NCBI RefSeq assembly: GCF_000758525.1
Contig: NZ_CP009241.1
Location: 5,394,001 to 5,458,000 of the forward strand
DNA: 64,000 nt
Direction: 5' to 3'
Origin: Paenibacillus sp. FSL H7-0357
GTDB taxonomy: Bacteria; Bacillota; Bacilli; Paenibacillales; Paenibacillaceae
Shown: positions 5,305 through 29,527 of the stretch, piece by piece
How positions within the stretch are numbered: position 1 is the first letter of the stretch
How the letters are laid out: each line of letters starts with the position of its first letter
Position numbers and translations under genes: made by a program
Notes under the pieces: model-generated
What the model was told of the DNA's origin: nothing
What the model saw: the letters and a program-made list of their open reading frames with translations, nothing else
The model's database searches: none

Positions 5305-5583
5305 TCAATTATCTCCTTCGTTGTTAGATGATGTATTAAGGGCTTTACGGGCGACATCCCATGGTCCTTCAAGCGATGTATATTCAAATGGATTTACCGC
5401 ATAAGTCCCGTCAATATCTGTTGTTAACCAAACTTCTTCGTTAGCGTAGAACGCTAGGGCTTTGTCCTTTTCTTCTAGGAGAGAAAGTAGGTAGCCGTAC
5501 CAGTCCATTGGGATTGTTGTGTATGTTCCGGGAGTGGCTTTGCACTTTTCATAGTCATTCTTAATCTGTGTTAGTTTATTCAT
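5305..5583 (-). CDS. Prophage protein of unknown function (92 aa)
   Basis: Not recognised. An N-terminal helix (MNKLTQIKNDYEKCKA) is followed by WYGYLLSLLEEKDKALAFYA and an acidic C-terminus. AGGGGGTTCCC directly precedes the ATG. Leader-element copy C (5599-5648) lies 15 bases upstream of the start, so the ribosome binding region directly follows the structured element. Confidence 0.55.
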   Translation of the reverse strand: MNKLTQIKNDYEKCKATPGTYTTIPMDWYGYLLSLLEEKDKALAFYANEEVWLTTDIDGTYAVNPFEYTSLEGPWDVARKALNTSSNNEGDN

Positions 5584-5911: not shown

Positions 5912-5936
5912 TCCCTTCACCCTCTCACCAATTTTT

Positions 5937-6368: not shown

Positions 6369-6446
6369 TCGTACCACCCTCTCACATTCTGTACGCCCCG
6401 TAGAGCGCTGATTATGGTTGACCCTAACTTGTGCCTGCCCTTGCGG

Positions 6447-6752
6447 TTATAACGTCTGTGTGGGGCTTGTATTAGCTGTGCGGTCTATTAACAACCCTCT
6501 TCCCCAACACTTCATAATTGGACGAATCATTAAATATTCTGCCGGATCAATGTCATATACTGGTGGTTCATAGTACGATCCGTGATCTGTGCATACAATA
6601 TCTCCAGCGTGACACTTAATGCCGATCGGTTTAGCTCCAAACTGTTTCTCGCTATAAGCAACCGGATATTTATAATCATTTGGATATCGCCATACTCCTG
6701 GATGGTCAACCGGCATATAGTGATAGTTGATATCTCCATATTCGTACTTCAT
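6447..6752 (-). CDS. Tyrosine- and proline-rich prophage protein (101 aa)
   Basis: Not recognised. The N-terminal half is unusually rich in Tyr and Pro (YHYMPVDHPGVWRYPNDYKY) with scattered His and Cys (KCHAGDIVCTDHGS), which could bind metal. AAAAGGGAGAAAACAGGG precedes the ATG. It stands slightly apart from its neighbours (gaps of 68-78 bases). Confidence 0.5.
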   Translation of the reverse strand: MKYEYGDINYHYMPVDHPGVWRYPNDYKYPVAYSEKQFGAKPIGIKCHAGDIVCTDHGSYYEPPVYDIDPAEYLMIRPIMKCWGRGLLIDRTANTSPTQTL

Positions 6753-6819
6753 CCCTGTTTTCTCCCTTTTTCTCTCGCGCGTAGAGTGGCTTGCTTATCT
6801 CTGAGAGGCCCCTCTCGTT

Positions 6820-6927
6820 TTACTCTCTGCCGCGATATACTGTCTTTCCACACCGTTTACACCGTTGTTTCCATATCCTCATGTTGTAGTCGTATTTATG
6901 ACCGAATATTTTGCATAGGAGATGCAT
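6820..6927 (-). CDS. DUF1660-like zinc-ribbon phage peptide (35 aa)
   Basis: A 35-residue peptide with the pattern of DUF1660 prophage proteins: MHLLCKIFGHKY at the N-terminus and CKRCGKTVY near the C-terminus, giving a single C...H...CxxC site. AGAAAAGGAGCCTAACCC precedes the ATG. It overlaps the 3' end of the 46-residue gene upstream in another frame. The family call comes from motif memory. Confidence 0.65.
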   Translation of the reverse strand: MHLLCKIFGHKYDYNMRIWKQRCKRCGKTVYRGRE

Positions 6928-7036
6928 GGGTTAGGCTCCTTTTCTCTGCGTCTTCCTTGAATGCTTCGATTCCCCGGCGCTGCCATTCTTCAAAGTCCAG
7001 GTCGTAGAGGTCGTAGTCGTCTATGGGTTTGGTCAT
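6896..7036 (-). CDS. Small acidic phage protein (46 aa)
   Basis: A 46-residue frame beginning MTKPIDDYDLYDLDFEEWQR. GGAGATAGG precedes two consecutive ATG codons (7039 and 7036); either may be used. The ATG pair overlaps the stop of the upstream gene. The acidic N-terminus followed by a helical segment is typical of uncharacterised early phage proteins. Confidence 0.5.
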   Translation of the reverse strand: MTKPIDDYDLYDLDFEEWQRRGIEAFKEDAEKRSLTHASPMQNIRS

Positions 7037-7320
7037 CATCCTATCTCCAAATCAGTTCCATACTTTTCATTCACCGCATTCAAGTGATGCTTTAAGTCCA
7101 CAATAGCTTTGTCATATCCTTCTTGATCTTGTATTTGGTCGAAGTTAACCTTTGTTCCTTTTGCGGTAGGCTTAAGCCACCGTGTCGGCAGCATGCCATC
7201 ACCAAGCATCTTGTGCCATATAATAGCTTTTCTTACTTCGTAATCCTTTTCAGCGACTTTATTAGTCAGATATTTAAACTCAATTTGTCCACCGACAACT
7301 TTAATTTCTGATACGCTCAC
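7036..7320 (-). CDS. Prophage protein next to the replication genes (94 aa)
   Basis: Not recognised. It has an N-terminal beta segment (SEIKVVGGQIEFKYL) and a mixed C-terminal helix (YDKAIVDLKHHLNAVNEKYG). It lies directly downstream of the DnaC-like loader gene with a 21-base gap, so it is probably co-expressed with the replication module. No nuclease or helicase motifs are visible. Confidence 0.55.
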   Translation of the reverse strand: MSVSEIKVVGGQIEFKYLTNKVAEKDYEVRKAIIWHKMLGDGMLPTRWLKPTAKGTKVNFDQIQDQEGYDKAIVDLKHHLNAVNEKYGTDLEIG

Positions 7321-7341
7321 TGTTCATCCATCCTCTCTTAT

Positions 7342-8262
7342 TTAAGCCGGTTCACTCTTGCTTTGTGGTCTGCGATCCGGTCCCAGCATTTCAATTTGTT
7401 CTGCCTTGCCGTTTATCCGACTTCCGATCTTCCCGCCGTTCATCGGTAACCGTTCTCTGATGCGACCTAATGCATAGTTGCTGGTCATGATCGTAACCTT
7501 GTTGTTCTTCATTCGCTCGTCAATGATGTTGTATAGCATCCCTTCGGCCCAATCCTTGTACTGAGCTGTGAAAATGTCGTCTATCATCAGGATCGGCACG
7601 TTGTAGTATCGCTGTAGCACATCAATTTCAGATTCTTCGCTATCTCGGCTGTATGTCGCTTTAATCTCTCCGTACAATTTTGACTCTGTGACGTATATTG
7701 CCGGGATCTTCCGGTATGAGAATGCATTTGCCATACACTGCATGAGGTAGGTCTTGCCAGTACCGTAGGCGTTTAAGATAGCTCCCTTTTCCTTAGAAGC
7801 TTCTGCTACCCGGGCATCGTCACCGAAGATGTACAGCCATGTGCCAAGCTCCATATGCCTCTTGATGTCACGAACAAATTCTATAGCCACCCCAAACTGT
7901 TCGCGGTTCAGATTGTCGACCGTTGCAGTTTTAAAGGTGTATCCTCGCTCTTTTGGGCTGAAGCTCTCGGCTGCGTTGTACTTTTGGAACATCCGGTCCA
8001 TGTGGCAGCTGCAGTTTTCCACCACGGCCACTTGCATCGGAATCGGGTATCCTTCCGGCTGCTCCCATCGGAATGAGTTTATCGTTCCGGTGTAATCACA
8101 TTTTGGACATCCTTCAGTCGAAGTTGCTGGCGATCCGCTGAACTTCTTCGGTGGTAAGTCCTGATTCTCGTCCAGGGCTTCCGATGAAGGTTTCAGCGCC
8201 TCGGCTCGCAGCCTTTCGACTCGCTTCAGAAACTCCTGCATAGCCGGCTTGATACTTTCCAC
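7342..8262 (-). CDS. DnaC/DnaI-like helicase loader ATPase
   Basis: A phage helicase loader that would deliver a replicative helicase to the phage origin. Residues ~1-55 are a charged helical region, residues ~50-85 contain a cysteine cluster (CPKCDYTG ... CSCH) likely to bind zinc, and the AAA+ core follows. A Walker A-like segment reads GTGKTYLMQCMANAF and Walker B reads VPILMIDDIF; a sensor-like MTSNYALGRIRERL segment lies near the C-terminus. The start is GTG at 8262 with GGGGAGGCGGGAACG upstream; an ATG at 8241 is an alternative. The first 149 bases overlap the initiator gene out of frame. Confidence 0.82.
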   Translation of the reverse strand: MESIKPAMQEFLKRVERLRAEALKPSSEALDENQDLPPKKFSGSPATSTEGCPKCDYTGTINSFRWEQPEGYPIPMQVAVVENCSCHMDRMFQKYNAAESFSPKERGYTFKTATVDNLNREQFGVAIEFVRDIKRHMELGTWLYIFGDDARVAEASKEKGAILNAYGTGKTYLMQCMANAFSYRKIPAIYVTESKLYGEIKATYSRDSEESEIDVLQRYYNVPILMIDDIFTAQYKDWAEGMLYNIIDERMKNNKVTIMTSNYALGRIRERLPMNGGKIGSRINGKAEQIEMLGPDRRPQSKSEPA

Positions 8263-11258: not shown

Positions 11259-12053
11259 TTATATGGCCTCAAGCAAATCAAGGTAATGTGTCATGCTGCT
11301 CAATCTTTTTTTAGCTTTGCAGTAATTACAGCGTCCGCATCCGGTTGGCTTAACATTTCCGAATTTAACATCCAGAATATGAGGTAGTTTTTGTTCTACT
11401 TCTCTAAGCTTTTCTTGGATGATTTGATCGTCAAACCAAATGATTTCTTTGTCTGGAACCTCTTCCTTAGAAACAGCCAGTAGTGTAGGCTCGAGATATT
11501 CAAATTTCATTTCTCCGCTCAATCTCTCGATCTCGGCATACATTGCCATTTGAACGTCATATCCGTACATCTGGATGAAGGACACATATTTTGTTCCGTC
11601 CCAATATTTTTCCCGAATTCCTTTAACTGTTTTAATATCAGTGAACCGCCCGTTATCCCGAGATAAAACATCTATCTTCGATTTCCACATAGTGCCGAAT
11701 ATATCAGCTGTAAGAATGACCTCTTTCTCACCTTCAAGCACCTTATTGCATAGATCGTCAGCTAAAACCACGTCAATCATGTTGTTTGCTGACTTATATG
11801 GTGCTTTAAGTTCCTTTTTAGCTGTGTAAATATCTGGTGTTGATGATTTAAAAGCTTCAAAAGCTTCATTGCTTTCTAGCGCTGCATGTACATATGAGCC
11901 AACCAATAACGCTTCATGTTTCATGTCCGTGTATGATCCATTGAGTTTTGCCATAGCTGCGGATTCACATTTTATGAAATCTTTGTATTGCGAAACGCTC
12001 ATATATTCCTGGTTCGCTTCAGGAGAGTAATAGTTTTCAGCCGTTAGTTCCAT
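11259..12053 (-). CDS. PD-(D/E)XK nuclease-like (RecE/DUF3799-type) exonuclease
   Basis: Probable 5'-3' exonuclease partner of the annealing protein. MELTAENYYSPEANQEYMSV followed by SQYKDFIKCESAAMAKL is typical of the DUF3799 group. The PD-(D/E)XK core shows ILTADIFGTMWKSKIDVLS and FTDIKTVKGI (D-IK). A Cys cluster near the C-terminus (TGCGRCNYCKAKK) may bind iron-sulphur or zinc. The ATG at 12053 follows GGAGGTAAACGTG; the frame overlaps the annealing gene by 17 bases. The pairing matches phage lambda-Red-like modules. Confidence 0.78.
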   Translation of the reverse strand: MELTAENYYSPEANQEYMSVSQYKDFIKCESAAMAKLNGSYTDMKHEALLVGSYVHAALESNEAFEAFKSSTPDIYTAKKELKAPYKSANNMIDVVLADDLCNKVLEGEKEVILTADIFGTMWKSKIDVLSRDNGRFTDIKTVKGIREKYWDGTKYVSFIQMYGYDVQMAMYAEIERLSGEMKFEYLEPTLLAVSKEEVPDKEIIWFDDQIIQEKLREVEQKLPHILDVKFGNVKPTGCGRCNYCKAKKRLSSMTHYLDLLEAI

Positions 12054-12681
12054 CACGTTTACCTCCTGTAGCAAGTTGTTCAGTCAATTTGTTCAGGAAT
12101 GATTCAGCCATTTCATCGTCCAATTGCATCAAAGGGACACCGTATAGAGCGGAACTCTGATCATCCAGTCGGTTAGCTCTCATTCCTAATGTGGCCCATG
12201 CTGCCTTGATCTTCGACAAAACCTCTTTAGATGCTTTCTGACCGAACTTGTTTTGGAATGCGTCTGGATCGTCCTTATCCGTCGGGATGTTGAAGAATTT
12301 AAGCGTGAAATATTTTTCTGCGTATGTGAGAGCTTTACCTACGCCTTTTTCGCCCGCAATATCAACACCCTGGGAATACCATGGGCATTCTATTTTTTCC
12401 TCTGGATTGTCTGCATTTACCCATGTAAATGTCATATTCAACTCCGTAAAATAGGTGGTTGTCTTTTTTGGCTTATCCCGGTCCATATATTCAATTGTTT
12501 CTGACAGAAGGTTCTTATCCGTGATTCTTGGTATCAACAACAAACCCATATCATTAATTTTGTCGCGAACAGATGCCAACACTTGGGCGCTACCTGTATA
12601 GTCGTATTGATTTGATTTCGATTCTTTCTTGAGATAATCAACTGACTTACGAACCTCAACCAATTTTTGATAGATGTTCAA
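12037..12681 (-). CDS. ERF family single-strand annealing protein
   Basis: An Erf-type recombinase that would anneal single-stranded DNA during phage recombination. The start MNIYQKLVEVRKSVDYLKKE and the motif GVGKALTYAEKYFTLKFFNI followed by PTDKDDPDA are characteristic of the family. Length of 214 aa is normal. GGAGGTAGTACACATTG lies at the start region. It is co-transcribed and overlaps with the RecE-like nuclease downstream. Confidence 0.88.
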   Translation of the reverse strand: MNIYQKLVEVRKSVDYLKKESKSNQYDYTGSAQVLASVRDKINDMGLLLIPRITDKNLLSETIEYMDRDKPKKTTTYFTELNMTFTWVNADNPEEKIECPWYSQGVDIAGEKGVGKALTYAEKYFTLKFFNIPTDKDDPDAFQNKFGQKASKEVLSKIKAAWATLGMRANRLDDQSSALYGVPLMQLDDEMAESFLNKLTEQLATGGKRDGTNG

Positions 12682-12721
12682 TGTGTACTACCTCCTAAAG
12701 TTTTGGTATAATTGTCGTAAC

Positions 12722-12889
12722 TTAATTTTCAAACAGTCTTTCCCGGGCAGCCAGTGCAATGGCTGCTTCTTCTCTGCGTTTAGCCCTAACCATGCTCATA
12801 AAGTAAACTCTCAATAACGTGTCAGTTAGCGTCCCCTTCGCCTTTGCGATCTTCGCAAGCTCTAGAAATGTCAGTCTGTTTGGTATCAT
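12722..12889 (-). CDS. Small basic phage protein (55 aa)
   Basis: A 55-residue frame beginning MIPNRLTFLELAKIAKAKG, helical and basic in the middle (MVRAKRREEAAIALAARE). GGAGGGAAAGGAGG lies directly upstream of the ATG. It occupies most of the gap between the annealing protein gene and the gene ending at 12937. Not recognised. Confidence 0.5.
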   Translation of the reverse strand: MIPNRLTFLELAKIAKAKGTLTDTLLRVYFMSMVRAKRREEAAIALAARERLFEN

Positions 12890-12936
12890 CCTCCTTTCCC
12901 TCCTTCCCGTAATGCTCTAAAATGTCCAGTACCGTT

Positions 12937-13167
12937 TTAAGCAGATTCTTTCAGCTCTCTTTCCAGGAATGCTTTGCTCATTTCCATCAGTTCTTCAAGC
13001 TCTCGCTGCTCGTCCAAGGTGCGGATTTCCTTAGCCCGGTAACCTTTCTCATGGATGCGGATAATCAGGCTCTCCATGTCTACAGCTGCCCATTGGAAGA
13101 TCCGTCCACACTCTGTTGTAAAGTAGAACTGCACAGATGGTGCTGGTGGTGGATACTTAGCTTGCAT
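12937..13167 (-). CDS. Small prophage protein of unknown function (76 aa)
   Basis: It begins MQAKYPPPAPSVQFYFTT and contains a helical C-terminal half rich in Glu (LDEQRELEELMEMSKAFLER). The ATG at 13167 follows AGGAGGGTTTGACG. It overlaps the upstream gene's 3' end by 11 bases. No family recognised. Confidence 0.5.
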   Translation of the reverse strand: MQAKYPPPAPSVQFYFTTECGRIFQWAAVDMESLIIRIHEKGYRAKEIRTLDEQRELEELMEMSKAFLERELKESA

Positions 13168-13399
13168 CGTCAAACCCTCCTAATTCCCGCACGAAAGGCC
13201 GCGGTATGCTGGTTAATGCTTCATCCTTGCAGGCTGTACAATGGGGCTGTAGGATGTCGTATACTTCCCATTCTGCTTCCCGGCCGCAGCCACATGTTGG
13301 TGAGTAGAAACGGTATGGACTTGGTTTCGGCTTGTCTGGTGTTTTAAATGGGATCAGCGTCAACATCGGGTTTCTGAGGTCTTCGATTTTTTTAGCCAT
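13157..13399 (-). CDS. Cysteine-containing phage protein (80 aa)
   Basis: A C-G-C-G motif near residue 37 and C-T-A-C near residue 57 suggest a zinc site (CGCGREAEWEVYDILQPHC). The ATG at 13399 is supported by AAGGAGGGACAAGCC; the upstream 90 in-frame bases lie in another gene's 5' region and have no supported start. Unknown function. Confidence 0.5.
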   Translation of the reverse strand: MAKKIEDLRNPMLTLIPFKTPDKPKPSPYRFYSPTCGCGREAEWEVYDILQPHCTACKDEALTSIPRPFVRELGGFDDAS

Positions 13400-13412
13400 G
13401 GCTTGTCCCTCC

Positions 13413-13634
13413 TTATTTGAAATATGGTTCCATGAATTTGAACGCCATTTTTGCTGCATTCTCTTTTTCACCCATTGGTGCAGCAGCACAACTTGCTAGC
13501 TTAAGAAGCTTTTCAATTCTAGAATCTTTTATCTGTGCTTCCTTGATGCTTTTGATCATTAACGTTATAAGGTTATCCACACTACCAAATGTAAATAGTG
13601 CACCTTCCCACATTTTATCCAGTCGTTTAGCCAA
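13413..13634 (-). CDS. Small prophage protein of unknown function (73 aa)
   Basis: Mostly helical with a hydrophobic core (SVDNLITLMIKSIKEAQIK; RIEKLLKLASCAAAP). Start is TTG at 13634, preceded by AAGGAGTGAAGAAAG, overlapping the 3' end of the excisionase-like gene by eight bases. Not recognised. Confidence 0.5.
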   Translation of the reverse strand: MAKRLDKMWEGALFTFGSVDNLITLMIKSIKEAQIKDSRIEKLLKLASCAAAPMGEKENAAKMAFKFMEPYFK

Positions 13635-13902
13635 CTTTCTTCACTCCTTTTTCTCCTTTGATAAGCGCGTATCGACGGTCTTGTTTGTCGCGTTGTTCTT
13701 TCTTCTTCGACTCAAGCCAGAGAATGAAATCTTCTTTAATAGTTCGACGACCGTTTCCAATCTTCATATTTGGGATTCCTCCAAACTCGATCGGCATATC
13801 GTAGAGGTCGTATACAGTGTTCCGAGCCATAATTAGGTAATCAGCAATGTCTTGCGCTCTTAGCACTGGTGGTAATTCTTCGAGGCTTACTCGCTTCTTC
13901 AT
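13627..13902 (-). CDS. Excisionase-like helix-turn-helix protein (91 aa)
   Basis: A MerR-like/HTH_17-type domain of the kind found in excisionases: PPVLRAQDIADYLIMARNTV, then YDLYDMPIEF, and the wing-like IPNMKIGNGRRTIKEDFILW. The C-terminus is basic. The ATG at 13902 is preceded by AAGGAGGTACATC. It is among the first leftward genes after the main divergent switch, where an excisionase or an early regulator would be expected. Which of the two cannot be decided from sequence. Confidence 0.65.
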   Translation of the reverse strand: MKKRVSLEELPPVLRAQDIADYLIMARNTVYDLYDMPIEFGGIPNMKIGNGRRTIKEDFILWLESKKKEQRDKQDRRYALIKGEKGVKKVG

Positions 13903-13979
13903 GATGTACCTCCTTGGAATTATTATCCTTTTAAGTCGTTTGGTGTCGTGTATAATTGACTTGTGAGTCATGTCGTTCT

Positions 13980-14207
13980 TTATGCTGTTCGGTCATGTAT
14001 TTCTTGTATTACATTATCTACAAAAAAAATATCTCTCTCAGCTTTTTTTAAAGCATCCGCAATTGAAAACATTAAAGATCCTGAAATGTTTTTCCGATCA
14101 CCTTTTTCTATCGCGTGAATGGTTTGTCTGCTTGTCTTAGCTCGTCTCGCTAACTCTGCAACACTCATACCAGTTTCAGTTCTATACTCTTTTACTTTGT
14201 TCTTCAT
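13980..14207 (-). CDS. Cro-like XRE helix-turn-helix regulator (75 aa)
   Basis: A short XRE protein, HTH at residues ~6-60: RTETGMSVAELARRAKTS then RQTIHAIEKGDRKNISGSL. It has only a short C-terminal tail and no oligomerisation domain, as for Cro. AAGGAGGTGTAACAC precedes the ATG. It is divergent from the repressor-like gene at 14329, with four GAATTAC repeats between them. The arrangement matches a lysis-lysogeny switch; which protein favours which state is inference. Confidence 0.8.
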   Translation of the reverse strand: MKNKVKEYRTETGMSVAELARRAKTSRQTIHAIEKGDRKNISGSLMFSIADALKKAERDIFFVDNVIQEIHDRTA

Positions 14208-14240
14208 GTGTTACACCTCCTTGTTAATAAGGTAACATAT

Positions 14241-14317
14241 GAATTACTTAAGTGTCAAGTATGAATTACACATTTAGATTTTTATTTTGGAATTACATAA
14301 TGTAATGTAAGAATTAC
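14241..14317. promoter_or_regulatory. Operator array of the main prophage switch
   Basis: GAATTAC occurs at 14241, 14263, 14290 and 14311 (spacings 22, 27 and 21), all in the same orientation, between two divergent HTH genes. The region also contains GTAATGTAA at 14302. Related words recur at 15269-15312. The roughly two-turn spacing suits cooperative repressor binding. Confidence 0.65.
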
Positions 14318-14328
14318 ACGGAGGTGCA

Positions 14329-14757
14329 ATGGTGGTTAATTTAGGTGAATTGTTACGCCAATTACGAGGTAAGGAATCTTTGCGAAGCGTTTCTAAACGT
14401 GCAGGGATTAGTCACAACTACTTAAGCATTGTTGAAAAGGGGGTAGATCCAAGGACAGGCGCGCCTGTAAAAGCTTCTCCTGATACGTTGAGAAGTTTGT
14501 CGCGCGCCTACAATTATCCGTATAAGGATTTGATGCTAGCTGCCGGTTATTCAGAACTTGAAGACCAACATCAAAGAGAAATAGAAAGCGTTACAAAATC
14601 AATAAATGCTATAAGCGACCTGAAAGAATTAATCTTGAGATATGATGATGAGCAAATTCTAGATATGTATCATCACACATCAAATGGAGAAGATTTGAAA
14701 GAAGAAGATGTCAAGAAAATTCTCTCTTATGTTCGATTTGTTCTGAAGGATTCTTAA
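14329..14757 (+). CDS. XRE family prophage repressor (142 aa)
   Basis: Likely lysogeny repressor. The N-terminal HTH (residues ~5-65) reads LGELLRQLRGKESLRSVSK, then AGISHNYLSIVEKG; an insert RTGAPVKASPDTL lies before helix 4. The C-terminal half is a charged helical domain (EIESVTKSINAISDLKELIL) for oligomerisation; no LexA/CI-type self-cleavage motif is seen, so RecA-dependent cleavage is not expected. GGAGGTGCA precedes the ATG. A divergent Cro-like gene and four operator repeats lie upstream. Confidence 0.78.
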   Translation: MVVNLGELLRQLRGKESLRSVSKRAGISHNYLSIVEKGVDPRTGAPVKASPDTLRSLSRAYNYPYKDLMLAAGYSELEDQHQREIESVTKSINAISDLKELILRYDDEQILDMYHHTSNGEDLKEEDVKKILSYVRFVLKDS

Positions 14758-14836
14758 ATTCCAAGACTGACTTGTCCAATCCTAGTTTTACGAACACTTC
14801 ATACCAGTCGATCACATCTTTCTTTGTTTGTTTCAT
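14711..14836 (-). CDS. Possible 41-aa antisense protein at the repressor's 3' end
   Basis: A leftward 41-codon frame (MKQTKKDVIDWYEVFVKL...) with a good ribosome site (AGGAGAGACTTGC). Its last ~15 codons are antisense to the end of the repressor gene. Either it is a small antirepressor-like or antisense-coupled protein, or a chance frame. The ribosome site is the only positive evidence. Confidence 0.4.
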   Translation of the reverse strand: MKQTKKDVIDWYEVFVKLGLDKSVLEFKNPSEQIEHKREFS

Positions 14837-14927
14837 GCAAGTCTCTCCTGTCGAATCAGAATGTTAATACCATAATATACGAACATAGGTTCCTATACAA
14901 CGTTAAAAAAAATTGAGGAGTACGTGC

Positions 14928-15152
14928 ATGGCCTATATACCGGGTCGATGTCGCCTCCGCCTGTTACTTAGAGAGAGACGCAAGTCTCAGAAATGGTTGT
15001 CCGATAAAACTGGTATAGATAAGTACAGAATTTCTTATTACGCCAATGACCGAGGTTTAATGCACATTTCCACAGCAAAAACCATTGCTAATGCTCTAGG
15101 ATGTCATATTGACGATCTGTATGAATGGATTCAAGGCGGAGGCCATGAGTAG
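14928..15152 (+). CDS. Small XRE-type helix-turn-helix regulator (74 aa)
   Basis: A compact HTH protein: RLRLLLRERRKSQKWLSDKT, then GIDKYRISYYANDRGLMHI and STAKTIANALGCHIDDLYEW. The final CHIDDLYEW segment is typical of single-domain XRE proteins of the phage/YdaS-like Cro class. GAGGAGTACGTGC precedes the ATG at 14928. It is the second rightward regulator of the region, behind the presumed repressor. Confidence 0.75.
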   Translation: MAYIPGRCRLRLLLRERRKSQKWLSDKTGIDKYRISYYANDRGLMHISTAKTIANALGCHIDDLYEWIQGGGHE

Positions 15153-15350
15153 ATTTTCTACTCTCGGCTCGGTGTAAAAGTTGTCACATCTCACAACCAT
15201 TTATTTAAGTGGTAGCGCTGCCACGTGTACAAGAATAATTTACCATCTATAGAGATTGTTTTATAGCGGTAATGTATTACAGTAAATTACTATTTGGAAT
15301 CAATTACATAATTTTTTACATGATGGTGGTAATAAAGGAGGGCATAACCA
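15153..15350. promoter_or_regulatory. Intergenic region with a second operator cluster
   Basis: No gene is visible here. A perfect inverted repeat GAGTAGA/TCTACTC (15148-15164) overlaps the preceding stop, and the near-palindrome GTGGTAGCGCTGCCAC lies at 15209-15224. GTAATGTATTAC (15269-15280), AATTAC (15285) and AATTACATAAT (15302-15312) resemble the operator words at 14290-14317; the last 11 bases are identical to 14291-14301. A second repressor binding region is likely. Confidence 0.5.
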
Positions 15351-15473
15351 TTTACACTATGGATGTTTAGGTTATAATGAGGGTGTAAGGGTTATGCCCT
15401 AGATGGTTGTCACCTAGTTACCTTGGTCGGGCTTAGGTGAACGGATTAGTCGCTGAATAGCGGCTTTTTTTAT
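15351..15473 (+). ncRNA. Probable small structured RNA of about 90 nt
   Basis: A sigma-A-like promoter, TTTACA at 15351, a 16-base spacer and TATAAT at 15373, would start transcription near 15385. The RNA would contain a stem TCACCTA/TAGGTGA (15410-15416 with 15434-15440) and end in a terminator AGTCGCT-GAAT-AGCGGCT with seven T (15448-15472). An inverted repeat AGGGCATAACC (15339-15349) / GGTTATGCCCT (15390-15400) brackets the promoter. No reading frame of useful length exists. The terminator's T-run overlaps the stop of the convergent gene at 15470, so it may act antisense to that mRNA. Confidence 0.55.
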
Positions 15474-16117
15474 TTGACAACATGTAGGTACCTGGGTATT
15501 GCCTTTCTGACTTTTGTAACTTCTCCAGTCTGGCTATTCTCCAAGTACTGCTTTCCCTTTTCATCCGTGTGCATTGTGTAGTATGGTACATCATTTTCAT
15601 CCATGAACTCTTCCATAAGACCTTTTTGTCCTTGTACTCTACGAATATCACTTATCAAGGACATATTATTTACCATGAAATGGGACACATCCCAATTTTG
15701 ATAATCCCATAAAAAGTCATTGATTTTTTCCAATATAGGTGTATTTTCGCCTATTTCCGCTATAGCATTCTTTGTGAAAAAATAATCTTTCCACCCGTTC
15801 TTCTCGCCATCATATTTCTTTTCTATTGGGAAAATGTTTTCAAATTCATTTGGACTAAGTTGACTCATGGCCCCCTTGATGAACTCAAATGCTTCCATTA
15901 TAGATAAAAGCTCATCATAATTTAAACCATCAGTATTTTTAGCATTTAACATTTTCACTCCATAATAAACGAATCTTTTCTTTTCTAATATCTTCAGTTC
16001 ATCAAATAATGAATCTGAGTTATTTAGGCGTTCAACACATTTAGAGAATGCATTGAAATATAGATCAAAGTAGTTAGGCCGTTCCCTTTTGACTCCGTTT
16101 ATAACTTTAAAATTCAT
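15470..16117 (-). CDS. Prophage protein of unknown function beside the antirepressor (215 aa)
   Basis: Not recognised. A helical soluble protein (FNAFSKCVERLNNSDSLFDE, YDELLSIMEAFEFIKGAM) with an aromatic FLWDYQNWDVSHFM segment and a basic C-terminus. It lies 15 bases downstream of the antirepressor gene and was probably acquired with it. Its AT content is higher than that of the replication genes. An immunity or host-interaction role is inference from position. Confidence 0.55.
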   Translation of the reverse strand: MNFKVINGVKRERPNYFDLYFNAFSKCVERLNNSDSLFDELKILEKKRFVYYGVKMLNAKNTDGLNYDELLSIMEAFEFIKGAMSQLSPNEFENIFPIEKKYDGEKNGWKDYFFTKNAIAEIGENTPILEKINDFLWDYQNWDVSHFMVNNMSLISDIRRVQGQKGLMEEFMDENDVPYYTMHTDEKGKQYLENSQTGEVTKVRKAIPRYLHVVK

Positions 16118-16132
16118 TTTTATCCTCCTCCA

Positions 16133-16885
16133 TTAAGCTGCTGGCAAAAACTTATTGATAAAATATATTTGTCCTTTTCCTGTAACTTTTGCAGTAAAAG
16201 TAAGCTTGGTTGTACCTCCAGATCCGCTGCGATATCCGGTTTTGATCTCAAACAATCCCATTTCCATTGAACGTTGTGTAGGCTTGTTGTACTCAGTTCC
16301 AGACTTAATCAGATATCCTTCATCCCTCATCCATTTAAACAATCGAATTTCTCCTATCTCTACACCTTTTTGACGCATCAACTTAGCTAATTGTCCAACC
16401 AGTATGGAATCCTCTGATATTTCAATTGCTTCAGCATAATGTACTTTGTGCTTGTCATTTTCAATTTTCAACTCAAGAACTTTGTTTTTCTCTTGTGCTT
16501 CTTTCAATACATTTCCTAGTTGTATTAGAAAATCTGGGTTGGTTGTAATTTTTTCAATTGTGTCTGGAGTCATATATGCTCCGTGTTTTCTAATTGATGG
16601 GAGTATTTCGTCTGCTACTCTTGCCTGAAACGCAATGCCTTTTTCGTTTTCTGACTTCATCGACAATCTATAGAAGACGTTTTCTGGTATATACTCTTTC
16701 CCCACAAGTGGAGAAAATCCCAATTCAATCAAATATCCATTTACTCTTTCCCAACGAATGTATTCTACCTTCCCTTTTTGTTGAGTAAAACCAAGGCCTC
16801 GAGACACATCATCCAAATTCAATTGCGCTACTCCGTTTTCGTCAATAAACCCTCTTACCCCGTTAATAGTAATTAATTGATTCAT
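16133..16885 (-). CDS. Phage antirepressor (BRO-N plus KilA-C/ANT-type domains)
   Basis: A two-domain antirepressor of 250 aa. The N-terminal BRO-like domain (~1-110) shows IRWERVNGYLIELGF and FQARVADEILPSIRKHGAYM. The C-terminal domain (~150-250) has ISEDSILVGQLAKLMRQKG, then RLFKWMRDEGYLI and TAKVTGKGQIYFINKF, the usual phage ANT layout. Such proteins counteract a repressor to favour induction. A perfect dyad at 16899-16918 lies just upstream of the start. Confidence 0.85.
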   Translation of the reverse strand: MNQLITINGVRGFIDENGVAQLNLDDVSRGLGFTQQKGKVEYIRWERVNGYLIELGFSPLVGKEYIPENVFYRLSMKSENEKGIAFQARVADEILPSIRKHGAYMTPDTIEKITTNPDFLIQLGNVLKEAQEKNKVLELKIENDKHKVHYAEAIEISEDSILVGQLAKLMRQKGVEIGEIRLFKWMRDEGYLIKSGTEYNKPTQRSMEMGLFEIKTGYRSGSGGTTKLTFTAKVTGKGQIYFINKFLPAA

Positions 16886-16898
16886 TATTAATCCTCCC

Positions 16899-16918
16899 TT
16901 GTAAAATATAATTTACAA
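16899..16918. promoter_or_regulatory. Perfect dyad TTGTAAA-N6-TTTACAA upstream of the antirepressor
   Basis: The inverted repeat TTGTAAA / TTTACAA with a six-base AT spacer sits between the antirepressor start (16885) and the end of the next HTH gene (16942). Its position just before the antirepressor ribosome site suggests an operator for one of the local HTH proteins. Confidence 0.5.
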
Positions 16919-16941
16919 ATGCTACAATAAACACGGAGTTG

Positions 16942-17148
16942 TTACGATACATCTCTGAGCAGTTCTTCAATGCATGTCAGGTTAAATATTACCTTGAGCG
17001 AATCCGCCATATCCAGATTAATTTTCGAAGTGCCTTTCTCGATTTTGTGATAGAACTGTTGCGAAACTCCCAACTTCTCAGCCACTTCTTTTTGAGATAA
17101 AAAGTTGATTTTTCTCAGATACTCTACTCTTGTTTTTGGCTGTGCCAT
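16942..17148 (-). CDS. Small XRE helix-turn-helix regulator of the second switch (68 aa)
   Basis: Single-domain XRE protein: KTRVEYLRKINFLSQKEVAE, then KLGVSQQFYHKIEKGTSKI. The ATG at 17148 is supported by GGGAGGTGGAAAACA. It is divergent from another XRE gene at 17219, forming a second Cro/repressor-like pair 2.9 kb from the first. Its HTH closely resembles that of the divergent partner (GVSQQFYHKIEKGT versus GVSQQYYNKFEKGT), suggesting a common ancestor and shared operators. Confidence 0.75.
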   Translation of the reverse strand: MAQPKTRVEYLRKINFLSQKEVAEKLGVSQQFYHKIEKGTSKINLDMADSLKVIFNLTCIEELLRDVS

Positions 17149-17218
17149 TGTTTTCCACCTCCCATAATTAAATAATACAACCATATGTTTATTAAATCAA
17201 TGCCAAGGAGATGTTTTT

Positions 17219-17767
17219 TTGAATTTATTTTCCGCACGTTTAAAATGGCTAAGAGAACGCATGAATATTTCTCAAAAGGAAATGGCACAAAAAATAGGTG
17301 TTTCCCAGCAGTACTACAATAAATTCGAAAAGGGGACTGGACAACCGAATCTTGAAACCTTGTATAAAATCAGGCATACAACTGGTGAATCACTAGATTT
17401 TATTATTGGGTATACTTTTGAAGATAAGGAAGCAACTCTTCTTTACGAAATTTATATTGACCACAGGGATCAAAGAGAAAAATTGGAAAACGATATAGAA
17501 CATCTCAGTAACGATACTTTTGCAATGGGAAAAATGAACCTTGAAGAGAGGATGTCACTTGTTAGCAAACTAAGAGAGGGTGTTTTGGATTATTTAAAGA
17601 GGGAAGAAAGAGCTTTAGATATGTTCATAACTCATATTTCTGAACTACCAGGTTTTGATGATCACATGAATAAAGAACACTGGAAAAATGAGTACGAATC
17701 TTATAAAAACAACCATAATGTTTTTTTTACTGACTTTGCAAAGAAATACACGGATATTTTTGATTGA
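17219..17767 (+). CDS. XRE family repressor of the second switch (182 aa)
   Basis: N-terminal HTH at residues ~5-60 (LKWLRERMNISQKEMAQKI, GVSQQYYNKFEKGTG) followed by a long charged helical C-terminal region (DHRDQREKLENDIEHLSND). No peptidase motif is seen. Start is TTG at 17219 with AAGGAGATG upstream. It precedes the integrase in the same direction with a terminator between them. Whether it is the primary immunity repressor or a superinfection or excision regulator cannot be told. Confidence 0.75.
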   Translation: MNLFSARLKWLRERMNISQKEMAQKIGVSQQYYNKFEKGTGQPNLETLYKIRHTTGESLDFIIGYTFEDKEATLLYEIYIDHRDQREKLENDIEHLSNDTFAMGKMNLEERMSLVSKLREGVLDYLKREERALDMFITHISELPGFDDHMNKEHWKNEYESYKNNHNVFFTDFAKKYTDIFD

Positions 17768-17770
17768 ACA

Positions 17771-17805
17771 AAAAGACCATACTCACTTCGGGTATGGTTT
17801 TTTTG
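17771..17805 (+). terminator. Rho-independent terminator after the second repressor
   Basis: ACCATAC (17776-17782) pairs with GTATGGT (17792-17798), followed by seven T. An A-run on the 5' side could make it bidirectional. It separates the repressor gene from the integrase. Confidence 0.75.
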
Positions 17806-17854
17806 TTACCCCTACCCTACAATACAGACATAGAGAGAGTTAGGAGTGATCCAG

Positions 17855-19198
17855 GTGAAAGGTCATTATTATAAGCCTCATTGTAAATGCCCAGGGTTGC
17901 AGAAAAAGAAGTGTAAGTGTGGTGCCAAGTGGGCGTTTTTGCTAGACTTGGGGAAGAAACCGGACGGATCCCGGAACCAGAAGAAGCGCGGAGGATTTGA
18001 CACCAAAGACGACGCAGAGGCCGCAGCAGCCATCATGATGGAGCAACACAAGACTAACACCCTGCCAGAAGATGTGGCCCGTAGAGAGGCTGAGGAACAG
18101 CGCAAACTTGAAGAGGAGAAAAAGGAAGAACAACGACTTAACATTAGCTTTGAAGATCTGGCCGAACAGTGGTACGAAGTATATAAGTCCACGGGAAAAC
18201 GAAAACGAGTTAATACGCTTAAGAATAGAAGAAACGATAAAGTCAGACTTGTTGCATGCTTCGATAAACCAGCGCGCGAAATAACGCATGATGAATATCA
18301 GGATACCCTGATACAGTTGAAAGATGGCTCTCACGAAAAGCATAAAAGAAAATTTACTACAAATACTTTAAGCAACACACACGTGACTGCAAAGATGATA
18401 TTCGAGTTTGGGATTAAGCATAAATTTTTAGAAGAAAACCCAGCTAAAGGCGCTCACGTACCTAAAGATTACCAAACAGTCGAAGAAATAGAATCCTGGG
18501 AAGACATACCTGATTTTTTGGAGCGTGACGAGCTTCTGATTTTCCTTGATACTGCCTACCTACATGGAAACCCATTAGACTATGAAATATTCACCACTTT
18601 AGCGTATACTGGTATTCGGATTGGTGAATTAGAAGCGCTTCAGGAACCTGCCTTTAATCCAGCATTAAATAAGATAAAAATTATAAAGAACTATATAAAT
18701 TATAACAATTACACAAAGTTCGAATTGGGTCCTCCTAAGACAACCTCTTCTATTCGTGAATTAGATATTGACCCAGAGATCACAACCATGATGTTAGGAT
18801 TAATCGAGCAACACAAGGTAATTAAATCCACCAACAGTTCACATCTTGACCAAGGATTTATATTCGGGCAGAAAGTAGGGAGGTATATTGGTTATCCGAT
18901 TCCTGAAGGCATTATTAACCAAAGGATGAAACGCATATTGCGTATTTCCGGTTTAGACAAAGACCTGTCGCCCCATTCAATGCGGCATACATTCACGTCA
19001 TTGATGGCAGAAGCAGGAGTTAGCCTGGAACAGGTAATGGAGATGTTGGGACATGCTGGCGATGAAATGACGAGACGAGTTTACCTACACACCACCAAGA
19101 CGAAGAAAAAAGATGCAGTAGAAAAATACAGCAATTTGCTCCAAAATACGATCAATCGAGAGCAAAATGTTACCCAATTGTTACCCAAGCTTGTTTGA
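17855..19198 (+). CDS. int: Tyrosine recombinase (phage integrase)
   Basis: Site-specific recombinase that would integrate and excise the prophage. The N-terminus has a cysteine-rich arm-type region (CKCPGLQKKKCKCGAKW) at ~8-24, then a charged helix and a SAM-like core-binding domain (~105-200). The catalytic residues are visible: Arg in YTGIRIGELEAL, His-x-x-Arg in HSMRHTFTSL, His in MLGHAGDE and the nucleophile Tyr in RRVYLHTT. Start is GTG at 17855 (AGGAG eight bases before). At ~447 aa it is of normal length. It lies at the right edge of the element, reading outward toward tdk. Confidence 0.93.
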   Translation: MKGHYYKPHCKCPGLQKKKCKCGAKWAFLLDLGKKPDGSRNQKKRGGFDTKDDAEAAAAIMMEQHKTNTLPEDVARREAEEQRKLEEEKKEEQRLNISFEDLAEQWYEVYKSTGKRKRVNTLKNRRNDKVRLVACFDKPAREITHDEYQDTLIQLKDGSHEKHKRKFTTNTLSNTHVTAKMIFEFGIKHKFLEENPAKGAHVPKDYQTVEEIESWEDIPDFLERDELLIFLDTAYLHGNPLDYEIFTTLAYTGIRIGELEALQEPAFNPALNKIKIIKNYINYNNYTKFELGPPKTTSSIRELDIDPEITTMMLGLIEQHKVIKSTNSSHLDQGFIFGQKVGRYIGYPIPEGIINQRMKRILRISGLDKDLSPHSMRHTFTSLMAEAGVSLEQVMEMLGHAGDEMTRRVYLHTTKTKKKDAVEKYSNLLQNTINREQNVTQLLPKLV

Positions 19199-20683: not shown

Positions 20684-20712
20684 TTGTTGTATTTTAGTTC
20701 ATTAGGTATAAT
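20684..20712 (+). promoter_or_regulatory. Sigma-A promoter of the agr-like operon
   Basis: TTGTTG at 20684-20689 and TATAAT at 20707-20712 are separated by exactly 17 bases. An imperfect dyad (GAACAAAAT at 20671 with ATTTTAGTTC ending at 20700) overlaps the -35 region and could bind the LytTR protein encoded at the end of the operon. Confidence 0.7.
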
Positions 20713-20760
20713 ATTTGCAAGATTAAAGGTTGAGTTAATCTGACCTTCGGGAGTGTCGGT

Positions 20761-21417
20761 ATGCTGGATTCTGTACTTTTTATTGTGTTTTCGGTACTCG
20801 AAAGTACCGCATTATTTTATCTGGCATTTAAGATATTTAAGATTGATCTTTATCCGAAGGAAATGGTTTTTGCTGGTTTAATTATGGCTTTCTTCTCTTA
20901 TGTCATTCGGGTGAATAACGGTTTTGCAGGGATTGATGTATTTACCCAATACCTGCTTGTTTTTCTCTTTTTATGGCTGCTATTTCGAATTCATGTTTTT
21001 TATGCAGCTATTATGACAGGTATGTCCTACCAGCTCTACATGCTTATCCAATCTATACTATATTTGTTAATGAGCACTTCAGGAATTACAGATTTTAAAC
21101 TTCACTCAATATCGATAGGAGTATATTTAATGCAGACGCTATCTGCCTTGACAGCATTCTCTATCGGACACTATATTGGGAGGAAAAGGAAAGGCTTTGA
21201 TTTTGTTCCGGACAAGCCCGAAGAGAGAATCGTTTTAGGACATCAGGAAAAAGTCCTCTTTACATTAAGTCTACCTTCTATTCTTATTGTTTATTTAATG
21301 ATTTATGTTTCTGAGAATTCCTCTCAGTTATTTATTCTCATCCCTCTCGCTTACGCTGTGCTTTTGTTCGGATATTTAGATTTTTCGATCAAGAAGAACC
21401 GTGGTGATGAATTTTGA
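20761..21417 (+). CDS. Membrane receptor-like protein lacking a kinase domain (218 aa)
   Basis: About seven hydrophobic segments (around residues 3-26, 34-50, 60-80, 82-108, 118-142, 165-185, 190-210) fill the protein. This is the size and topology of the sensor half of AgrC-type histidine kinases, but the frame stops after a short basic tail (FSIKKNRGDEF) and no HisKA or ATPase domain follows. Its stop overlaps the start of agrB. By position it is the presumed peptide receptor of the agr-like locus; this is inference, since the family cannot be named from sequence alone. Another possibility is an accessory transporter. Confidence 0.65.
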   Translation: MLDSVLFIVFSVLESTALFYLAFKIFKIDLYPKEMVFAGLIMAFFSYVIRVNNGFAGIDVFTQYLLVFLFLWLLFRIHVFYAAIMTGMSYQLYMLIQSILYLLMSTSGITDFKLHSISIGVYLMQTLSALTAFSIGHYIGRKRKGFDFVPDKPEERIVLGHQEKVLFTLSLPSILIVYLMIYVSENSSQLFILIPLAYAVLLFGYLDFSIKKNRGDEF

Positions 21418-21938
21418 ACAGTTTGGCTATTAAAATTTCAGCCGCAATAAAGCGGGCCAATCCAGAGGAAACCTGTTCTGAAGAAATAATGCAGTATGCC
21501 TTGAATATTATTTTAAACACTCTTCTAACCATCACAGCTTCCCTTGTCATTGGCGGGTTGTTAAATAATTTCACTGAAACCTTGATTTTTTATATATGTT
21601 TTAGCATACTGCGCATATGTTCAGGCGGTTTTCATTTACGGACGGCGACTGCCTGCAATATTGTTACTACATTAATTTGTGTTCTCACCCCATTTCTTTT
21701 GAATTTCACTGGATCTTCACTTTGGATAATAAATGCTTTTAGTTTAATCATTATGTTTTTATTTGCCCCAAATCCGGATAAAAATGCCCAAATTCCGCTC
21801 AGATGGTTTCCCGGTCTGAAGATGGCTTCCATAGCACTTGTTGGTTTTAATTTTATTATTGGTTCGTCTGTCATCGGACTGGCTTTTCTGGTTCAGTCCT
21901 TAACAGTAATTCCATGGAAAGGGAGGTTGAAGTTATGA
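21414..21938 (+). CDS. agrB: AgrB-like autoinducer-processing peptidase
   Basis: Membrane cysteine peptidase that trims and cyclises the AgrD propeptide. The catalytic pair is visible in ICSGGFHLRTATACN: His, then Cys seven residues on, as in AgrB (His77/Cys84). Around it lie six hydrophobic segments. The N-terminal amphipathic part (ISAAIKRANPEETCSEEIMQ) is also typical. At 174 aa it is slightly short. Start is TTG overlapping the upstream stop; its own stop overlaps the agrD-like ATG as ATGA. Confidence 0.88.
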   Translation: MNSLAIKISAAIKRANPEETCSEEIMQYALNIILNTLLTITASLVIGGLLNNFTETLIFYICFSILRICSGGFHLRTATACNIVTTLICVLTPFLLNFTGSSLWIINAFSLIIMFLFAPNPDKNAQIPLRWFPGLKMASIALVGFNFIIGSSVIGLAFLVQSLTVIPWKGRLKL

Positions 21939-22054
21939 AGTCATACATTGCGAAACAAGCATCCTCAGCTCTTGAGGCTTCCGCACGATTCTTTGTCTCT
22001 GTTATGAAAATTGGTTTACACAGCCCTGAAGCACCAAAAGAATTGCGGAAGTAA
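21935..22054 (+). CDS. agrD: AgrD-like cyclic lactone autoinducer propeptide (39 aa)
   Basis: A 39-residue peptide with an amphipathic N-terminus (MKSYIAKQASSALEASARFF), a middle SVMKIGL and the C-terminal tail PEAPKELRK, which matches the AgrD PxxPKEL tail. It follows AgrB with an ATGA overlap and GGGAGG before it. There is no cysteine anywhere, so a thiolactone cannot form. The Ser in FVSVMKIGL is the plausible ring residue (as in serine-lactone AgrD peptides). The mature peptide is not determinable from sequence. Confidence 0.78.
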   Translation: MKSYIAKQASSALEASARFFVSVMKIGLHSPEAPKELRK

Positions 22055-22075
22055 TTAAACAAGGATGGGGAAAAC

Positions 22076-22441
22076 ATGCGTGTCTTACAAAACGACGGCT
22101 CCTCCCTGGACATCCAGGAAGAAGAAATATTGTATTTTTCCAGCTACAAAAATGCAATATTCGTCCATACGAAAGAAGGCGAGTTTGTTCTCCCCACTAC
22201 TCTTTCCGATCTATGGGTTGCTTATAAGGGTAAAGGATTTGAGCGTCTTGACCGCAGCAATGTCGTGAGTCTCAGCAATGTGGACAGTTATGATGCGGAG
22301 CGGAAGATCGTTCTTTTTAATCAAGGAGAACAATTTGCCACTGTATCTGAGTCCAATGAAGCCCGCCTCAAAAAACATTTAGCAGGACGCAAAAAAGACT
22401 CCTCGCAAGAAGAGAACAAAGACAGCAACAATAAGCAGTGA
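22076..22441 (+). CDS. Stand-alone LytTR DNA-binding protein (121 aa)
   Basis: A LytTR-type regulator, the DNA-binding domain of AgrA/LytR, without the CheY-like receiver. It begins directly in the domain (MRVLQNDGSSLDIQEEEILYF, with FERLDRSNVVSLSNV further on) and ends in a charged tail (KKDSSQEENKDSNNKQ). GGATGGGGAAAAC precedes the ATG. As last gene of the receptor-agrB-agrD operon it is the likely output regulator. With no phosphoacceptor Asp, activation must work by another route than phosphorylation. Confidence 0.78.
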   Translation: MRVLQNDGSSLDIQEEEILYFSSYKNAIFVHTKEGEFVLPTTLSDLWVAYKGKGFERLDRSNVVSLSNVDSYDAERKIVLFNQGEQFATVSESNEARLKKHLAGRKKDSSQEENKDSNNKQ

Positions 22442-22478
22442 TCCCGGTGCACATTAGCACTGGGATCGTTGCTTTTAT
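22440..22478 (+). terminator. Terminator after the LytTR gene
   Basis: GATCCCGGTGC pairs with GCACTGGGATC (one G-T pair) around a six-base loop, followed by GTTGCTTTTATT. It overlaps the stop of the LytTR gene. Confidence 0.7.
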
Positions 22479-22639
22479 TCAACATCCTTCGACCCAATCC
22501 TTCATTTTCCCATATCATTCATTTTTTGTAAAGGGGAATTCACGCTGTGAATACCAGGAGACGGATTTCTTTCCAAATGGTACCATTTAGATAGATTACT
22601 ATAATTTAAGTCATTCTAAATAACCGATGGAGGAATCTA

Positions 22640-22819
22640 ATGGATTATTACTTTCATCCTTCTCCGCGCCCCTCATCCCTTGAAATGTTATCTGACGAAC
22701 AGTTATTGAACATCTATGAATTGGCGGTGGAGGCGAAGGCTTCGCCTGATTTTATTGAAATTATTAAAAATGTACTGAACGGGAGAAAATTAATGGACTC
22801 AGAGCACCTGGATGCTTGA
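22640..22819 (+). CDS. sda: Sda-like sporulation checkpoint protein (59 aa)
   Basis: Sda blocks autophosphorylation of sporulation histidine kinases when replication is perturbed, keeping Spo0A~P low. The core LSDEQLLNIYELAVEAKAS followed by DFIEIIKNVLNGRKL has the two-helix hairpin pattern of B. subtilis Sda (LSDELLIESYFKATE...RDFIELIENEIKRRSL, from memory). A 16-residue N-terminal extension (DYYFHPSPRP...) is unlike Sda. GGAGG lies before the ATG. A promoter-like TATAAT lies near 22600. spo0A is 6 kb away. The gene follows the agr-like operon. Confidence 0.8.
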   Translation: MDYYFHPSPRPSSLEMLSDEQLLNIYELAVEAKASPDFIEIIKNVLNGRKLMDSEHLDA

Positions 22820-28708: not shown

Positions 28709-29527
28709 TCAAGAAACCTTATGTTCAATCCGCAGCTTGTCGGCTACCATGGCAATAAATTCTGAGTTAGTCGGCTTGGATTTGGAGATATTAATGGTAT
28801 AGCCGAACAGGTGGGAGATGCTGTCGATGTTGCCACGGGTCCAGGCCACTTCAATGGCATGACGGATCGCGCGTTCTACGCGTGAAGGCGTGGTCTTGAA
28901 TTTCTCGGCGATGGCCGGATAAAGTGTCTTGGTGATGGCACCGAGGATTTCGATATTGTTGTACACCATCGTAATGGCTTCACGTAAATATTGGTAACCC
29001 TTAATATGGGCCGGAACGCCGATTTCATGAATGATTGAGGTAATGTTGGCATCCAGATTTTTGCCTTTGGAGAGCGGCACAACATTGTTGTTACTTCTGG
29101 AGCCGGAATAATTGGACATGCTGGAGGAGGAGCTCATACTGCCTTGGGTACCAACAAGCTGACGCACACGATTGGCCAGTACCTCCATATCAAACGGCTT
29201 AAGAATATAATAGGACGCGCCAAGCTGCACAGCTCTTTGAGTGATGTTCTCCTGCCCAAAAGCAGTCAGCATAATGATCTTCGGTTGCGGATTCAAATCC
29301 ATATCACGCAGGCGTTCCAGGACGCCAAGTCCATCTAAATGCGGCATAATGATATCAAGAATTAGCACATCCGGAACTTTACGTGCCCCGCTAAGCATTT
29401 GAAGCACTTCTTCACCATTATAGGCAATGCCCGTCACGGTCATGTCTTCCTGTTCCGTAATGTATTCGGCAAGCAAGTTCGTAAACTCTCTGTTATCATC
29501 GGCCAACAACACTTCAATATTCTGCAC
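28709..29527 (-). CDS. spo0A: Sporulation response regulator Spo0A
   Basis: Master regulator of sporulation entry, activated by the phosphorelay. The receiver (residues ~5-125) has the acidic pocket LLADD, the phosphoacceptor Asp in [12 protein letters not shown] (near 56-58) and the switch Lys in YILKPFD. A serine-rich linker ([19 protein letters not shown]) follows. The C-terminal DNA-binding domain carries [21 protein letters not shown], the recognition region of the family. Length of 272 aa is normal. The upstream region has TGTCGAA-type 0A boxes, implying autoregulation. It follows spoIVB. Confidence 0.97.

Follow-up and report, generated by a model that had tools for sequence, protein, structure and literature searches.

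The window, that is, the whole 64,000-nucleotide stretch of Paenibacillus sp. FSL H7-0357 DNA analysed here, belongs to a 7.69-Mb single-contig genome whose nearest named relatives are Paenibacillus, and contains a compact operon encoding, in this order, a membrane protein (hereafter designated REC), AgrB, an AgrD-like peptide, and a bare LytTR-domain protein (Table 1). All four reading frames of the original prediction were found where it had placed them, with overlaps of 4 nt both between the REC and AgrB genes and between the AgrB and AgrD genes. The promoter that it had proposed is present as well, and identical hexamers with identical spacing occur in 24 of 45 upstream regions, a count that is somewhat flattering, having been obtained by a best-match search. 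This promoter was absent from a generic scan, which needs at least 4/6 consensus letters, because its -35 hexamer has 3/6.

Table 1 Features of the agr-like operon and its immediate neighbour in the window.
Feature	Coordinates	Strand	Basis
Operon promoter, TTGTTG-17-TATAAT	20684..20712	+	Sequence; same hexamers and spacing in related upstream regions
REC, seven-helix membrane protein without kinase, 218 aa, no Pfam family	20761..21417	+	ORF, AF2 model, tree, 107 relatives
REC residues 143-152 (RKGFDFVPDK), predicted cytoplasmic loop, candidate docking site	21187..21216	+	Alignment; topology and function inferred
AgrB peptidase-cyclase, 174 aa, TTG start within REC stop overlap	21414..21938	+	PF04647, 92 bits
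AgrD-like signal precursor, 39 aa, Lys class	21935..22054	+	ORF; TIGR04223, 13.8 bits; AgrD register
Predicted signal core K-I-G-L, AgrD residues 25-28	22007..22018	+	Register from conserved P-x-E-L tail; inferred
Bare LytTR-domain protein, 121 aa, no receiver	22076..22441	+	PF04397, 47.3 bits; AF2 model
Terminator-like hairpin, operon end	22436..22471	+	-23 kcal/mol, z -6.3
Sda-family sporulation-inhibitor gene, neighbour, possible target	22640..22819	+	PF08970, 34.5 bits

The co-occurrence of the four genes across genomes was then assessed. Forty-five named loci were found in GTDB genomes, and REC, AgrB, AgrD, and bare LytTR genes follow one another in this order in 43 of them, far above random expectation, so that the arrangement is not a product of chance. 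The two exceptions are L027, where the contig ends, and the Cohnella locus L067, in which a LytTR gene was not found; in L066 the LytTR frame is interrupted by unread bases, and L032 carries the cassette as two tandem copies. AgrB occurs in 96 of 148 Paenibacillaceae genomes, and the REC profile matches in at least 70 of these 148, in at least 111 of 247 genomes of the order (other families included), and in at least 5 of 398 genomes across the phylum, namely three of the genus of the window (the window genome included) and two weak half-length matches. These REC counts are lower bounds, because the search of the own genome missed the receptor of its second locus, L002, even at E ≤ 10, though the same profile scores that receptor at 54.9 bits. 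Two distantly related genomes of the phylum (L219 and L220) encode, directly upstream of AgrB, REC-like proteins of half length (150 and 177 aa).

Among 80 AgrB loci read in Paenibacillaceae, a non-random set consisting mostly of the best-scoring and same-genus part of the AgrB matches, REC immediately precedes AgrB in the same orientation in 69, a GHKL kinase without REC is present in 10 (nine of them also with a response regulator in the stretch), and one has neither. Thus, REC and LytTR occupy the place of kinase and regulator. In the AgrB tree, whose bootstrap is unsettled, a very long branch (3.41; 100/100) separates nine kinase-type AgrBs from those of the REC type, and the tenth (L138) is very distant (branch 4.04) and of unsure placement. 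A bare LytTR gene follows in 61 of the 69 REC loci (55 detected in a first pass and six by a widened profile), eight having no adjacent LytTR; none of the 69 has a kinase on the operon strand, five have a divergent orphan kinase, and at two (L107 and L139) the 8.5 kb read include a response-regulator frame. Twenty further REC stretches, chosen for long frames, arrays, or outlying families, comprised eight with bare LytTR, three with kinase fusions, and nine with neither, which indicates that REC is not bound to LytTR everywhere. Six of these nine (L204, L207, and L211-L214) combine REC with AgrB but contain neither LytTR nor a kinase. In the other three (L206, L208, and L216), neither an AgrB nor a LytTR gene was found in the stretch read, and L208 carries three closely related RECs in tandem (4666-7448).

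REC had been described as a receptor of about seven segments that stops where the kinase of AgrC would continue. The chain length and the seven long helices of the AF2 model (pLDDT 87.5; residues 2-25, 32-52, 56-75, 79-107, 119-142, 161-186, and 193-214) bear out the first part of this description, but "an AgrC that stops" is inexact, since REC shows no sequence relationship to any of the AgrC-type sensors tested. REC gave zero matches to Pfam and NCBIfam at E ≤ 1, and its profile gave none to PDB sequences at E ≤ 10; REC profiles scored near zero or negative against the six GHKL kinases of the own genome, and gave a single chance-level match (E 0.2) when run against the sensor regions of the kinases from the AgrB loci retrieved. 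A Foldseek fold search of the PDB returned nothing clear (best E 0.35); AgrC-type sensors were not among its matches, which is uninformative either way. Judging from the basic loops, the N-terminus would lie outside and the C-terminus inside, the latter being the end where a kinase would join. The 107 relatives span 125 to 250 aa, within length limits of the search that excluded much longer proteins. In the putative docking loop, G145, F146, D147, and P150 are invariant across 40 aligned rows. Moreover, F148 of the GFxF motif in this loop is present in 77 of 88 RECs of LytTR loci and in 13 of 28 LytTR-less or kinase-fused ones (Fisher 2.4e-5), a comparison that is uncorrected for kinship and omits RECs with matches below 150 aa, and so is a hint only.

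The LytTR protein is indeed bare, as predicted: the PF04397 domain covers residues 13-102, there is no Response_reg match, and the LytTR proteins of the 45 sequences (67-136 aa) are too short for a receiver. The 13 best Foldseek matches of its AF2 model (pLDDT 90.5) in the PDB are all LytTR domains, 12 of them at E ≤ 0.001, with a poor superposition (rmsd about 10) and an indecisive second aligner. In the part of PMC4227749 available, the LytTR DNA-binding motif is given as FhRhHRS. The protein of the window reads F-E-R-L-D-R-S, departing from this motif at the His, and the Asp is found in 100 and the Arg in 99 of 101 bare LytTRs, the same position being His in all five aligned response regulators of the own genome. 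Glu92 occurs in 75 of the 101, where four of the five own regulators have Arg and one has Glu. The Asp-for-His replacement marks the bare LytTRs as a subfamily and may entail altered DNA recognition.

Whether REC is ever fused to or neighboured by a kinase bears directly on its role. Three genomes of a single genus, one of them Chengkuizengella sp. SCS-71B (identical record; P0190, "sensor histidine kinase"), encode six proteins, 452-469 aa long, in which REC runs on into a kinase part, with Pfam HATPase_c in all three of the fusions scanned; genomic frames with a REC profile match in these genomes measure 456 to 477 aa. The alignment, which includes five of the six fusions, shows that the stand-alone RECs stop where the kinase part starts. 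The fusions are adjoined by AgrB and by a regulator of 199 aa, which in the one case scanned has a Pfam Response_reg match, and a LytTR gene was not found in the three fusion stretches. A database search for further fusions, run with a narrow word filter, returned the query's own record alone. In the tree of 116 RECs, the six fusions group as a single clade (100/98) whose sister is a stand-alone REC from the same family (100/97), and they fall within a group of 20 rows (99/88) that otherwise holds stand-alone RECs; with midpoint rooting, the fusion is derived unless the root falls inside the fusion clade. REC is accordingly a sensor domain, and the nesting of the fusion clade among stand-alone RECs makes the fusion the apparently derived form. 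The receptor gene is thus not the recent truncation of a kinase that the original prediction had named as counting against it: the kinase-less form is kept across genera, and the fusions are nested among it.

The second locus of the genome, L002, consists of REC, AgrB, and a Ser-class AgrD, followed at 2155-2260 by LytTR remnants, which tblastn with relatives detected as matches of 18-20 residues (85-89% identity) and an N-terminal piece of 21 residues (57%). Because these remnants persist, LytTR appears to have once belonged to L002 too, its output gene seemingly having been lost. Such a loss is what would be expected if the operon were a decayed or neutral agr remnant that recently lost its kinase; nevertheless, this is scarcely conceivable for the operon of the window, since gene lengths and order are conserved in the 43 loci, the same operon is present in full-length relatives down to 35-40% identity, the tree makes the kinase fusions derived, and intact conserved frames in dozens of species largely contradict decay.

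Kinases also lie beside REC without being fused to it. Orphan GHKL kinases adjoin nine REC loci of three families (L114, L120, L145, L146, L155, L205, and L197-L199), divergently in the five loci of one genus and in other orientations in L205 and L197-L199, and carry SPOB_a and HATPase (Pfam) in all six scanned; they are neighbours of the REC loci, not members of the operon. REC also occurs in arrays: genomes G150 and G158 contain 10 and 12 REC matches, and L202 has up to six tandem RECs (11847-16220) in a 19-kb stretch with one AgrB and one LytTR gene. These arrays (L200-L203) could represent eavesdropping receptors. Because the arrays sit near one AgrB, a receptor role suits REC better than that of an export partner. 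REC might instead serve AgrB in peptide making, export, or immunity, with LytTR responding alone or to something else, as could be read from its position directly upstream of AgrB in all 69 REC loci (which were chosen by AgrB), the eight without adjacent LytTR and the six further REC-AgrB stretches included, and from the half-length proteins encoded ahead of AgrB in L219 and L220. We regard this as improbable, since in six kinases REC supplies the sensor half, the kinase-type AgrB loci of Paenibacillaceae have no REC, and RECs occur both in arrays with one AgrB in the stretch and in stretches without AgrB (L206, L208, and L216). Collectively, these observations identify REC as a sensor, the AgrBD peptide being its most likely signal.

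As a further finding that would speak against it, the original prediction had named a full AgrC/AgrA pair elsewhere in the genome that uses this peptide. This holds by half: six GHKL-kinase/LytTR-regulator pairs do exist elsewhere, but none lies near either of the two AgrBs of the genome, and their sensors are unlike REC. Because of these six pairs, a phosphorelay keeps some probability, in which one of them would sense the AgrBD peptide while REC and bare LytTR merely tune the response. Separation of the AgrBs from the pairs is compatible with such a scheme, and in L138 the AgrB is divergent beside a kinase/regulator pair scoring high with profiles from the six. Nevertheless, we consider it unlikely, because the sensor domains of the six kinases have no similarity to REC, the L138 AgrB is very distant and of unsure placement, and it is REC and LytTR, not such pairs, that adjoin AgrB across genera.

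The reading that we prefer, to which we assign slightly less than an even chance, is that the locus is a kinase-free agr-type quorum-sensing operon in which REC, as the peptide receptor, acts on the bare LytTR protein through direct contact. By homology, AgrB would cut and probably cyclise the AgrD-like peptide, export following; REC would bind the peptide at the membrane and, through direct contact, hold and release or present the LytTR protein, which in turn would bind DNA, so that target transcription tracks signal density with no histidine kinase or receiver taking part. For this reading speak the conserved operon without kinase or receiver and the presence of REC as sensor part in kinase fusions that adjoin AgrB in a related family. 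Against it are the 8 of 69 REC loci without adjacent LytTR, the 9 of 20 further stretches with neither LytTR nor fusion, the array RECs that outnumber LytTR genes, the Asp-for-His LytTR motif, the orphan kinases, the response-regulator frames of L107 and L139, the six kinase/LytTR pairs elsewhere in the genome, and the lack of promoter repeats in a weak scan.

Among direct-contact schemes, sequestration and release as in LytTR Regulatory Systems is the likeliest by analogy; in the available part of PMC6193735, the membrane protein of these systems inhibits a bare LytTR regulator. Their examples HdrRM and BrsRM resemble the operon in combining a bare soluble LytTR protein with an integral membrane protein in one kinase-less operon, whereas the present operon has AgrB and AgrD, a membrane gene in first place, and a membrane protein of a different family. 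One may accordingly ask whether it is a classical system of this type with captured agrBD, REC being the membrane inhibitor and LytTR self-activating the operon via direct repeats at the -35 element. The pairing of a soluble bare LytTR with a multi-pass membrane protein does agree with the definition in PMC6193735, but the gene order is reversed, the regulator gene coming first in the available text of that source except in Bacteroides-type LRS-like operons. In addition, direct repeats of the known type (9 bp, 11-13 bp apart, upstream of -35) were detected at p < 0.05 in 0 of 45 upstream regions by a scan that recovered just one of three control operons, and the LytTR motif has Asp-Arg instead of His-Arg. 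Such an origin seems to us distinctly improbable, and since the promoter repeats were not found and the order is reversed, we do not class the operon as a LytTR Regulatory System; the available part of PMC6193735 names neither AgrB nor AgrD nor Paenibacillus.

The prediction of AgrB with His and Cys seven residues apart held fully, His74 and Cys81 each being conserved in 46 of 46 aligned AgrBs. The AgrD-like peptide fared less uniformly: the reading frame and the P-x-E-L tail are present, but there is no Cys or Ser at the ring-closing position of AgrD, and the TIGR04223 score lies under the cut-off of 19. Relative to the P of this tail, position -10 is Cys in the AgrDs called at kinase loci (7/7) and Ser or Cys in those of many REC loci (e.g., ACLFWS/HEPKIPTEL and ASLFMI/HRPEIPEEL), whereas the peptides of the window and of its clade carry Lys at -9, preceded at -10 by L, M, or another residue (VMKIGL/HSPEAPKEL; in the window, M followed by K), with cleavage predicted before H29. 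Among 136 AgrDs called at 149 AgrB places (13 missed), using a register choice whose scoring bonus favoured Ser/Cys and Lys, 59 had Ser/Cys only, 71 Lys only, two both, and four neither, the last having Ser or Cys shifted by one place; without the bonus (n = 127), the counts were 56, 65, two, and four, with 53 unique cores in each of the Ser/Cys and Lys classes. The Lys class has no further Lys at -10 or at -8 to -4. These results show that AgrDs form two nearly exclusive classes, one with Ser/Cys where the ring closes and the other with Lys at the next residue, a division that is new. In the AgrB tree, with its unsettled bootstrap, the Lys class is not a single clade (three changes), and the fusion loci have both kinds of peptide (Lys class in L198 and L199, Ser in L197).

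The one-residue shift may have a chemical meaning. AIP-I is, in the part of PMC4979651 available, a 16-membered thiolactone formed from an acyl-enzyme. By atom count, a five-residue Cys ring (4 + 12) and a four-residue Lys ring (7 + 9) both have 16 members, so that replacing a thiolactone by a lactam without altering the ring size would need just this shift. Because of this match, AgrB may make a lactam signal, although Lys might instead act in recognition, or the product might be linear. A more specific proposal would be a second agr design, in which AgrB closes the ring via the Lys side chain to give a 16-membered macrolactam, here cyclo K-I-G-L, that is read by the kinase-free seven-helix receptor and relayed to the bare LytTR protein by direct contact; taken as a whole, this design is tentative and on balance doubtful.

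Agr is the textbook peptide quorum-sensing circuit, defined by its phosphorelay, in which the AgrC kinase is paired with AgrA (receiver plus LytTR), the staphylococcal gene order being agrBDCA. The present operon shares with staphylococcal agr the His/Cys spacing of AgrB, the P-x-E-L tail, a LytTR output domain, and a multi-pass membrane sensor. Unlike that system, however, it has no kinase or receiver, and hence neither AgrC nor AgrA in the locus; its sensor gene comes first and shows no detectable kinship to the AgrC-type sensors tested; and both the ring-closing position of the peptide and the LytTR motif differ. The Chengkuizengella fusions are alike in having a homologous sensor domain with AgrB adjoining, but there the sensor continues into a HATPase_c kinase and the Response_reg protein is separate. 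To our knowledge, AgrBD of Clostridium perfringens also has no AgrCA of its own, whereas the operon of the window includes a dedicated kinase-less receptor. For C. perfringens, the available part of PMC7492741 proposes VirS, a full kinase encoded elsewhere, as the receptor. A Paenibacillus study (PMC10938842) only counts, in its available part, "cyclic lactone autoinducer" clusters and AgrB genes. Among the matches listed in a search of open-licence literature (titles and abstract openings, preprints being outside its scope), none described this cassette or a naturally occurring lactam autoinducer. The cassette is thus a new agr variant, possibly with a new signal chemistry besides. If correct, the REC/LytTR form would show how a peptide signal reaches DNA without phosphate, and the cassette would link agr to LytTR Regulatory Systems and supply such a system with a ligand. 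Ring closure by lysine to a lactam would likewise be chemistry of a new kind among autoinducers.

As for possible targets, an Sda-like gene follows the operon in 33 of the 45 named loci, mostly within half a kb and up to about 2 kb away. Genes for DinB (26 of 45) and thymidine kinase (27 of 45) are kept upstream, however, and because these are conserved too, the Sda linkage partly reflects shared gene order. Control of sporulation entry by the operon is a guess. No sites common to the operon promoter and the sda upstream region were found by eye. The region upstream of the Sda-like gene contains an inverted repeat, TCTTTCCAAATGGT/ACCATTTAGATAGA (22568-22595), a candidate operator whose core, AAATGGTACCATTT, is exact in 21 of 33 relatives compared. 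Spo0A is encoded at 28709-29527, about 6-7 kb from the operon. On the other side, the thymidine kinase gene and the agr-like locus are closely preceded by phage-like genes at 11259-19198 (DUF3799, a KilAC antirepressor, and an Arm/tyrosine integrase at 17846-19198).
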